Assembly (NCBI GenBank): GCA_035498015.1
Contig: DATKAO010000233.1
Location: 1 to 43,801 of the forward strand
Direction of reading: 5' to 3'
Source of the DNA: Myxococcota bacterium
GTDB taxonomy: Bacteria > Myxococcota_A > UBA9160 > SZUA-336
DNA length: 43,801 nt
Positions 41,346 to 43,801 of this stretch are shown in pieces. A model generated the notes under the pieces. The model searched no databases, was not told the origin of the DNA, and saw only the letters and a program-made list of their open reading frames with translations. Position 1 is the first letter of the stretch. The number at the start of each line of letters is the position of its first letter. The translations under genes and the position numbers were made by a program.

Positions 41346-42388
41346 GCACGATCCTCGACGCCCTGCGCAAGCTGCAGCGCGAGCGCAGCGCCACGCAGTC
41401 GCGCGACCTGCGCGGCTCGGTGACCGACGACATCCCCAAGCCGCGGCGCAGGCGGCGCGGCGGAAGCCGCGTGGTGTCACTCGGCCTGGCCGTCGTGCTG
41501 CTCGCGGCGGCGGCCGGCGGCGGCGCGTGGCTGTACAAGAGCGGGAAGCTCAAGCCGCTGCTCTCGCGCGCGCCCGCTGCGCCGGCTCCGGCAGTCACTG
41601 CCGACGACGACGCCAACGGGGACCCGTACGCGGGTCTCGACGACCTTCCGAGCGACGACGACGCGGCCATGGATCAGGCGACCGCCGCGACGCCGCCCCC
41701 TCCGACCCCTGCGCCGGTCGCGGCTCCTCCCGCGCCGGCGACTCCGCAGCAGGCCGCGCCTGCGCCCGCGCCGGCACCGGTCAACGCCGTGGCCCAGGCG
41801 CGCGGGCAGGCCGAGGCCGACGCCGAGCGCGCCCGGCTCGCACAGATCCAGGCGCAGGCGGCCGCGCAGCAAGCGGCCGCCGCCGCCGCCGCGCGCCAGC
41901 AGGCCGAGACCCTGGCCGCGCAGGAGCGTGCCGCCGCCGAGGCCGCCGCTGCGGCGGCAGCCCCGCCTCCGCCACCTGCGCCCGAGCCGGCCGCGCCGCC
42001 CGCGCAGGTCGCGGCCGCGACTCCGCCGCCCGCCGCGGCGCCCAAGCCGGCGCCGAAGCCGAAGGCCAAGGCGGCGCCCAAGCCCGCGGCCCCCAAGGCC
42101 GCCGCCAAGCCCGCGCCGCGCGAAGTGACTCGCGCCGGCGAGCCCGATCCGACGAGTGACTCGTACGCGGCAGCCCAGCCGGCCGCCTTCCCGCCGGTGC
42201 GGGTCGAGAGCATTCGCTGGCATCCGGTGAAGGAGCGTCGGAGTGTGAGCTTGCGCTTCGAGCAGCAGAACGTGACCGAGGCGCACGAGGGCGACACCGT
42301 GGCGGGCGTGCTCGTCTACCGCATCGACCCCGGCGCCGTGGAGCTCCGCGTCGGCTCGACCAGCCGAGTGATCCGCCCCGTGCCTTGA
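41342..42388 (+). CDS. GspB/ExeB-like secretion accessory protein
   Basis: A 348-residue protein with the family start MSTILDALRKLQRERSA, an Arg-rich patch and a membrane helix (VVSLGLAVVLLAAAAGGGAWLY, about 40-62). A long Ala/Pro/Gln-rich spacer (about 80-265) follows. The C-terminal GspB domain (VRVESIRWHPVKERRSVSLR ... AHEGDTVAGVLVYRIDPGAVEL) resembles a periplasmic HR-type domain. It works with the ExeA-like ATPase just upstream, with which it overlaps as GTGA. The next gene overlaps it as TTGA. Confidence 0.88.
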   Translation: MSTILDALRKLQRERSATQSRDLRGSVTDDIPKPRRRRRGGSRVVSLGLAVVLLAAAAGGGAWLYKSGKLKPLLSRAPAAPAPAVTADDDANGDPYAGLDDLPSDDDAAMDQATAATPPPPTPAPVAAPPAPATPQQAAPAPAPAPVNAVAQARGQAEADAERARLAQIQAQAAAQQAAAAAAARQQAETLAAQERAAAEAAAAAAAPPPPPAPEPAAPPAQVAAATPPPAAAPKPAPKPKAKAAPKPAAPKAAAKPAPREVTRAGEPDPTSDSYAAAQPAAFPPVRVESIRWHPVKERRSVSLRFEQQNVTEAHEGDTVAGVLVYRIDPGAVELRVGSTSRVIRPVP

Positions 42389-43467
42389 CGCTGGACGTCG
42401 GCGCCGAGCTCGAGCTCGCGATCGAGCGCCTGGCCGCTGGCGGCGACGGCGTCGCGCGCGCCGACGGGCTCGCCGTGTTCGTGCCGCGCTCCGCGCCCGG
42501 CGATCGCGTGCGCGCGCGCATCACGCACGTGGCGCCGCGCTTTGCGCGTGCCGAGATCGAGTCGGTGCTGGCGCCCGGCCCGGGGCGACGCGATCCGCCC
42601 TGCCCGTACTACGCGCGCTGCGGCGGCTGCTCGTGGCTGCACCTGACCGAGGCGGAGCAGCTCGACGCGCGTGCGGCGATCGCGCGCGAGGCGCTGCTGC
42701 GCATCGGCCGGCGCGCCGATCTGCCCGTGATCGAGCGCATTCCGGCGCCGCGGGCGCTGGGCTACCGCGCACGGGCGCGGGTCGCCTGGTCGGAGGGCCG
42801 GGTCGGGTTCCGCGCGCGCGCCTCGCACGAGGTGGTCGACGTCGAGACCTGCGCCGTGCTCGACCCCGACACCCAGGCGGCCCTCGCCGAGCTGCGCGCC
42901 GAGCGCCCGCGCGGCGCGGGCGAGCGCGAGATCCGCGGCCTGGCGGGCGGCGATGCCGAGCTCGACGTCGAGCCTGGCGCCTTCTTCCAGGCCAACCGCG
43001 CGCTCTGGGCGCGCTGGCTCGAGTGCGTGCTCGAGCTGTGTGGCTCGGGCGAACGCGCGGTCGAGCTCTACTGCGGAGCCGGCTTCTACACCCGGCGACT
43101 CACTCGCCAATTCGCGCGCGTGGTCGCGGTCGAGCGCTCGCCCGAAGCCGCGCGCAGCGCCGCGCGCAACAGCACGGCCGAGCTCGTGGCCGAAGCCGCG
43201 GAGCGCTGGGCGCCGAGTCACTTGGCGGCGGCGCGGCCCGAGCTCGTGCTGCTCAACCCGCCGCGCACCGGCTGTCACGCGTCGGTCGCGGAGGCGATCG
43301 GAGCTTCGAGTGCACGGCGCGTGGTGTACGTCTCGTGCGATCCCTCGACGCTGGCGCGCGATCTCGTGCGCATCGGGGAACGCTTTCGCATCGCGCGGCT
43401 CGTGCTGCTCGACGCGCTGCCGCAGACTCACCACGTGGAGCTCGTGGCCGCGCTGCAAGCAGATTGA
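42385..43467 (+). CDS. TrmA/RlmD-family RNA uracil-C5 methyltransferase
   Basis: A 360-residue SAM-dependent enzyme. An N-terminal TRAM-like RNA-binding domain is followed by a [4Fe-4S] cluster site (Cys73, Cys79, Cys82, probably Cys156), which is typical of RlmC/RlmD. The methyltransferase domain has VELYCGAGFYT, LLNPPRTG and VYVSCDPSTLARD with nucleophile Cys318, then DALPQTHHVEL with the base Glu. It forms 5-methyluridine in 23S rRNA or tRNA. It is about 70 residues shorter than E. coli RlmD. The TTG start overlaps the previous stop as TTGA. The TTGACA promoter of the next element begins at its stop codon. Confidence 0.92.
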   Translation: MTLDVGAELELAIERLAAGGDGVARADGLAVFVPRSAPGDRVRARITHVAPRFARAEIESVLAPGPGRRDPPCPYYARCGGCSWLHLTEAEQLDARAAIAREALLRIGRRADLPVIERIPAPRALGYRARARVAWSEGRVGFRARASHEVVDVETCAVLDPDTQAALAELRAERPRGAGEREIRGLAGGDAELDVEPGAFFQANRALWARWLECVLELCGSGERAVELYCGAGFYTRRLTRQFARVVAVERSPEAARSAARNSTAELVAEAAERWAPSHLAAARPELVLLNPPRTGCHASVAEAIGASSARRVVYVSCDPSTLARDLVRIGERFRIARLVLLDALPQTHHVELVAALQAD

Positions 43468-43493
43468 CAGCGCTGCTCGACGAAAAATAGAAT
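43464..43493 (+). promoter_or_regulatory. Strong promoter upstream of the terminal non-coding region
   Basis: A perfect -35 TTGACA (43464-43469), 18 bases, and TAGAAT (43488-43493, five of six consensus bases). It is one of the two best sigma-70-type matches in the window and overlaps the trmA-like stop codon. Transcription would start near 43500. Confidence 0.75.
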
Positions 43494-43499
43494 CCGCCC

Positions 43500-43680
43500 G
43501 TCGGTGGCGGAGCGAGCGGGGAGATCTGAGCCAGCCTACCGAAGGTTCGGGGCGGAGCATCAGCAGCTTGTAGTCGACAGCGAGTGCAGAAGCTGAGTGT
43601 CCATCGCTTCCCCGCGGTCGGAGAGAAAATCCAGCGAGTGTTGCAACGGGTCCTGCGACCGAAACGTCGCAGGACCCGTC
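43500..43680 (+). ncRNA. Candidate structured RNA of about 180 bases
   Basis: No gene is readable from 43468 to the end of the window (334 bases). Between the promoter and a perfect hairpin terminator the RNA can fold. GCGGGGA (43516-43522) pairs with TTCCCCGC (43608-43615), closing a junction that holds a small CCGA/TCGG hairpin (43539-43550) and a longer stem from 43554-43602 with CAGCTT/AAGCTG at its top. About 30 unpaired bases then lead into the terminator. I found no tmRNA, RNase P, 4.5S or rRNA signature. Length would suit 6S RNA, but its pairing was not reproduced. It could instead be a leader with a riboswitch for a gene outside the window. Confidence 0.45.
43646..43679 (+). terminator. 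Perfect 14-bp hairpin
   Basis: ACGGGTCCTGCGAC (43646-43659) and its exact reverse complement (43666-43679) flank the loop CGAAAC. The following bases, CGCTTCT, give only a short pyrimidine tract. It is the strongest hairpin in the window and probably ends the RNA started at 43500, or attenuates a downstream gene. Confidence 0.7.
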
Positions 43681-43696
43681 GCTTCTCGGGTCGTCG

Positions 43697-43716
43697 GTTT
43701 CGTCGCCCGACGAAAC
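43697..43716 (+). repeat. Second hairpin after the terminator
   Basis: GTTTCGT pairs with ACGAAAC around a CGCCCG loop. A third small stem (TGACCG / CGGTCA, 43724-43744) follows. Beyond it, to 43801, I see no gene or clear signal. Confidence 0.5.
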
Positions 43717-43801
43717 GCCCGTGTGACCGCTGATCATCCGGTCAGTCAGTGATGGGTCGGGCGATCGTCGTCGGAATTTCGCCGGCTGCGATCCCACTCG
43801 T

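Follow-up and report, generated by a model that had tools for sequence, protein, structure and literature searches.

The window, by which we mean the whole stretch analysed (43,801 nucleotides, the entire contig C233 of a metagenome-assembled genome of 4.5 Mb, 95% complete), ends in a promoter, a folding stretch and a hairpin set between two genes. What RNA might be transcribed there, whether relatives keep it (their genomes carry the labels Deltaproteobacteria or Myxococcota) and what it might act on are the questions addressed here.

An earlier note, made from the letters alone, had described an undescribed, independent RNA of about 180 nt with a TTGACA-N18-TAGAAT promoter, a closed junction, a perfect 14-bp hairpin and no coding frame. 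Most of this description stands. The promoter (boxes at 43464-43469 and 43488-43493, spacer of 18) agrees with 11/12 consensus positions, and one such promoter was found against 0.1 expected in shuffles. The stem closing the junction was recovered by minimum free energy (MFE) folding and by a helix search anchored at a conserved motif, and the hairpin, ~150 bases from the promoter, is perfectly paired along its 14 bp (arms 43646-43659/43666-43679). The RNA itself indeed has no coding frame; the last 56 bases of the window, however, belong to a rhomboid gene, of which they form the 3′ end. We call the RNA A; the gene unit spans 43464-43690, and its features are collected in Table 1.

Table 1. 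Location of RNA A, its parts and its neighbours in the window, and loci of the ribonucleotide reductase element.
Feature	Location	Strand	Basis or remark
TrmA/RumA-like tRNA/rRNA uracil-5-methyltransferase gene	42385..43467	+	Pfam PF05958 + TRAM
Promoter of RNA A, TTGACA-N18-TAGAAT	43464..43493	+	Equivalents in all 8 relatives
RNA A	43500..43690	+	Both ends inferred from promoter and terminator
Closing stem of variable domain, 5′ strand (GCGGGGAG)	43516..43523	+	MFE folding, helix search
Closing stem, 3′ strand (UUCCCCGC), ends immediately 5′ of conserved block	43608..43615	+	MFE folding, helix search
Conserved block GGUCGGAGAG	43616..43625	+	Complements tail of sRNA B, 10 bp in the window's genome
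Terminator hairpin, 14 bp	43646..43679	+	Stem kept in relatives with compensatory changes
Rhomboid-family protease gene, 3′ end, cut by contig end	43746..43801	-	C-terminus and neighbourhood as in relatives
Ribonucleotide reductase 3′-UTR element	L356, L359, L361, L363, L369, L373-L375, L378, L381, L383, L386, L405, L406

The folding energy of the 145-nt core was not unusual (z -1.0; 26/200 shuffles equally stable), and the excess stability of the whole unit (z -3.8) is due to the terminator hairpin. The hairpin was missing from a terminator scan because the T-run that follows it in the window is weak (CGCUUCUC); better T-runs follow it in relatives, e.g., CUCUUCUUUC and CUCUUUUCU. Upstream, the TGA stop of trmA (43465-43467) falls within the -35 box of A, an overlap found in the window and in 4/6 relatives examined (5/7 genomes). 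The rhomboid gene is convergent to A and complete in relatives, and a homologous gene on contig C97 of the same genome matched Pfam PF01694. The end of that contig (C97:48542-48686; L034) holds a further copy, partial and divergent, of the 3′ part of the A unit, adjoining the complete rhomboid gene; a strain variant, a contaminant and a paralogue are candidate readings of this copy.

When the A unit was searched against 60 relatives with BLASTN, its own genome alone matched, because A is too variable, and synteny with trmA was needed. Six family members were located by this synteny, and two more (G008 and G007) were added with a model plus inspection. The model was built from 7/9 loci, so their E-values are circular; the G008 copy was found independently (E 8e-7), and the G007 copy (E 0.8) was accepted on the combination of promoter, block and terminator. 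With the window's copy and those of eight relatives, the promoter-RNA-terminator unit was thus found in 9/11 family genomes, and in most of them it has trmA on one side and rhomboid on the other; it was not found in two family genomes, of 73% and 75% completeness. Promoters in the family read TTGAC(A/C)-N17/18-TAGAAT (TAAAGT in G009), and each RNA ends in a terminator hairpin whose stem shows compensatory changes at 6/14 pairs. The RNAs are about 90-220 nt long, their interior is unalignable, and 35 to 166 nt lie between the -10 box and a block just 5′ of the terminator. That block, GGUCGGAGA, is invariant in 9/9 A RNAs. A helix whose 3′ strand abuts the block is likewise kept, with entirely different sequences (combined p 2e-4 versus shuffles; weak in G004 and G009). 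Outside the family, model matches at E of about 1e-3 resembled terminators only, and no A was found beside trmA (four loci) or the rhomboid genes examined. On these comparisons, A is well supported as a conserved RNA, predicted to be transcribed independently.

Two known kinds of RNA had been suggested for the locus, a 6S RNA and a riboswitch-type leader, and neither is supported. We searched Rfam 15 with covariance models, and at gathering and permissive thresholds nothing credible was returned for A: 6S, tmRNA, RNase P RNA, SRP RNA and every other family were without a match, in agreement with the earlier failure to see tmRNA, RNase P or 4.5S signatures. A 6S RNA or other known structural RNA, recommended by size and an independent promoter only, is hardly credible for a molecule that scores usefully against no family and whose length spans about 90-220 nt inside one bacterial family; A also differs from 6S RNA in having no long bulged rod and in ending at a separate terminator hairpin. 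It is very improbable that A serves as leader to the gene that follows or derives from the trmA 3′ UTR. A co-directional metallophosphoesterase-like gene does lie downstream in G002 and G004, but a near-consensus promoter is present in 9/9 units, and a terminator lies ahead of whatever gene comes next. In six of the nine genomes (G000, G001, G006, G008, G009 and G010) the unit is followed by the convergent rhomboid gene, which excludes a leader wherever this arrangement is found, and in G008 the unit adjoins rhomboid where trmA is absent. A small open reading frame using GGAGAG as its ribosome site was also considered and rejected, as no start codon is kept in place across relatives. Separately, contig C52 of G007 (312-342; L276) carries GGGTCGGAGAGATGAG twice, at a distance of 20 nt, in what looks like a gene start, where the block sequence of A may be a ribosome-binding site.

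A genome search with GGGTCGGAGAG led to a second RNA, B, on the opposite strand; it was the sole other intergenic unit among the matches read, the rest being apparently coding places. B, on contig C98 at about 18.7-18.95 kb and with a predicted length of about 180 nt, adjoins a conserved gene, putatively VWA/CoxE-like, and has in most copies a TTGACA-N16-CATAAT promoter. Its further parts are a closing stem (GGAGA..GGCGGUGG/CCACCGCC..UCUCC), a hairpin (GACAUUUC/GAAAUGUC), an unpaired CCAACCUCUCACCCCCCA, a tail (CUCUCCGACCC) and a terminator. Compensatory changes were seen at 7/21 pairs of the stems, and the seed (CUCUCACCCCCC) is unpaired in nearly all predicted folds. A covariance model found B once each in 76/91 genomes of the class and in no genome among the 288 sampled elsewhere in the phylum; within the class, B was not found in family f2 (G011 and G051), though G011 is 99% complete. 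Rfam returned no match for B. That B is a conserved RNA is well supported by its covarying stems and its distribution. The tail CUCUCCGACCC is confined to the family with A (8/8 inside versus 0/22 loci outside), and the tails at the 22/22 loci examined outside that family are different, mostly CUCCCCCY-like.

Block and tail are reverse complements: GGUCGGAGA in A matches CUCUCCGACCC in B. In 8/8 genomes with both RNAs complete, the two can form a helix of 10 to 15 bp (-18.5 to -30.1 kcal/mol), which is the best or second-best between A and B in all eight pairs and is lengthened by flanking bases in G001, G008 and G009. The net energy after opening the closing stem of B, and sometimes A, is +0.2 to -8.3 kcal/mol. 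RNAduplex on the whole molecules was uninformative, and the single-genome statistic is weak, as 0 to 38 of 200 shuffled A RNAs matched the energy of the pairing. No compensatory change between block and tail was seen within the family, because both are invariant apart from their flanks. A second tract, rich in G and near the 5′ end of A, matches the seed of B in 5/9 A RNAs: 12 bp in G002 (p 0.002), 10 bp in G010 (p 0.002) and 9 bp in G001 (p 0.007), and weaker in G006 and G004. The A of the window has no tract against the seed.

We consider it likely that A and B pair with each other, because the only block that stays invariant in A is the exact complement of the tail that B has in this family; neither element is fully explained by the structure of its own RNA. 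Since B came to light through a search for the block itself, coincidence retains some probability. Another account takes the block as a protein-binding or mRNA-pairing site whose match to the tail is coincidental or marks a ligand shared by both RNAs; in its favour, CsrA sites typically contain GGA motifs. The CGGAGA hexamer, which occurs in the 5′ stem strand of B itself, adds to this account, but the complementarity also covers the unpaired GACCC of B, which the stem of B leaves unexplained and which is confined to the family with A, and we regard the account as rather improbable.

Class-wide, the exact complement of the seed of B, GGGGGGTGAGAG, occurs outside B ~3 times as often as a reversed control pattern; a fuzzy 17-nt seed search stayed at about background, and it is the exact 12-mer that is informative. 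The seed complement lies 0 to 5 nt 5′ of the ftsZ ATG, as the ribosome-binding site, in at least 12 genomes, which belong to several families. The same spacing was found before ftsA (2), clpX (2), a MinD/ParA-like ATPase gene (2), an H1-like basic protein gene (2, one genome) and pilC (1); gene identities were assigned by HMM on one example each, with no match for the H1-like protein. A G6 tract (at least six G) occurs in the 20 nt before the ATG in 23/29 ftsZ genes versus about 0.8% expected from the G6 density in these loci (9/11 in the window's family), counts whose independence is lowered by the shared ancestry of the leaders. At L339 (G014:C4:59578), GGGGGGTGAGAGGTT was noticed by eye in a putative dnaA leader, about 90 nt before the start. 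A conserved hairpin carrying GGGGGGTGAGAG lies directly 3′ of the stop of the B12-dependent ribonucleotide reductase gene at 14 loci in four families (Table 1), its G-tract mostly in or near the loop and with a terminator-like hairpin next to it.

We favour, with somewhat better than even confidence, a mechanism in which the class-wide B represses mRNAs, ftsZ among them, and is in turn antagonised through pairing with A, an sRNA of one family. Each RNA would be transcribed from its own promoter. The C-rich seed of B (CCAACCUCUCACCCCCCA) would cover ribosome-binding sites, that of ftsZ above all, and so repress translation; its most probable action is to block the start of translation on ftsZ and a small number of further mRNAs. 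A would dock on the 3′ stem and tail of B (GGGUCGGAGAG:CUCUCCGACCC) if the duplex forms in the cell, and in the five species with a G-tract it could cover the seed as well. Much as RosA acts on RoxS, A most likely antagonises B, for instance as a sponge, and takes it off its targets, a direction that we infer. The A of the window has no anti-seed tract and therefore, if it is a sponge, must act via the tail and stem of B, perhaps by opening the closing stem.

The direction could also be reversed or mutual, with A as the effector, for example via its variable domain or another target, and with the 3′ end of B controlling A, as by double-strand cleavage beside both terminators. The evidence for pairing is symmetric, and the lack of an anti-seed tract in the A of the window speaks for this direction, yet the recurrent mRNA matches belong to the seed of B and not to A, the unalignable interior of A offers no conserved effector sequence of its own, and B is by far the older and more widely distributed of the two. 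We therefore judge reversal unlikely, though it deserves some weight, and keep to A as the antagonist.

A wider scheme is more tentative, and we would put it well short of even. B would couple DNA-precursor supply to division by shutting the ftsZ, ftsA and clpX sites and would itself be titrated by pre-terminator sponges, namely, the 3′-UTR hairpin of the B12-dependent ribonucleotide reductase gene in several families and A in the window's family. The hairpin is a possible sponge of B, and A may have taken over this role in the window's family.

RNA sponges as such are already known. RosA of Bacillus subtilis is a sponge of RoxS and FsrA, of proven action (PMC8216469). Like A, it is a dedicated sRNA with its own promoter, its G-rich regions match C-rich target-binding regions of the partner sRNA, and it is distributed more narrowly than that partner. 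The likeness is of mode only, with no sequence relation and no claim of homology; the sole invariant contact of A is with the 3′ stem and tail of B and not with the seed, its anti-seed tract is present in 5/9 species, and its sponge action is predicted, whereas that of RosA is proven. RsaI of Staphylococcus aureus, an sRNA with a G-rich stretch, similarly pairs with the C-rich RsaE (PMC8216469), but RsaI also regulates mRNAs via a C-rich region of its own, and nothing comparable was seen in A. B resembles RoxS/RsaE and FsrA in its unpaired C-rich seed, complementary to the ribosome-binding sites of several mRNAs, and differs in being confined to this class and in having a single 12-nt seed whose main match is ftsZ. 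The A and B families and the link to ftsZ were found neither in Rfam nor in the papers covered by a limited literature search, which also returned nothing for the seed string and no sponge that retains just a short anti-tail block and a stem enclosing a freely varying domain.

Both RNA families seem to be undescribed, and they belong to a class whose members are known mainly from metagenomes, B being present in most genomes of the class. They yield a concrete prediction, sRNA control of ftsZ translation with a dedicated antagonist RNA, which can be tested directly on the 11-bp A:B helix and the 12-nt seed. If true, bacterial cell-cycle regulation would gain a further layer, in which a conserved base-pairing RNA controls FtsZ and particular lineages have sponges of their own.
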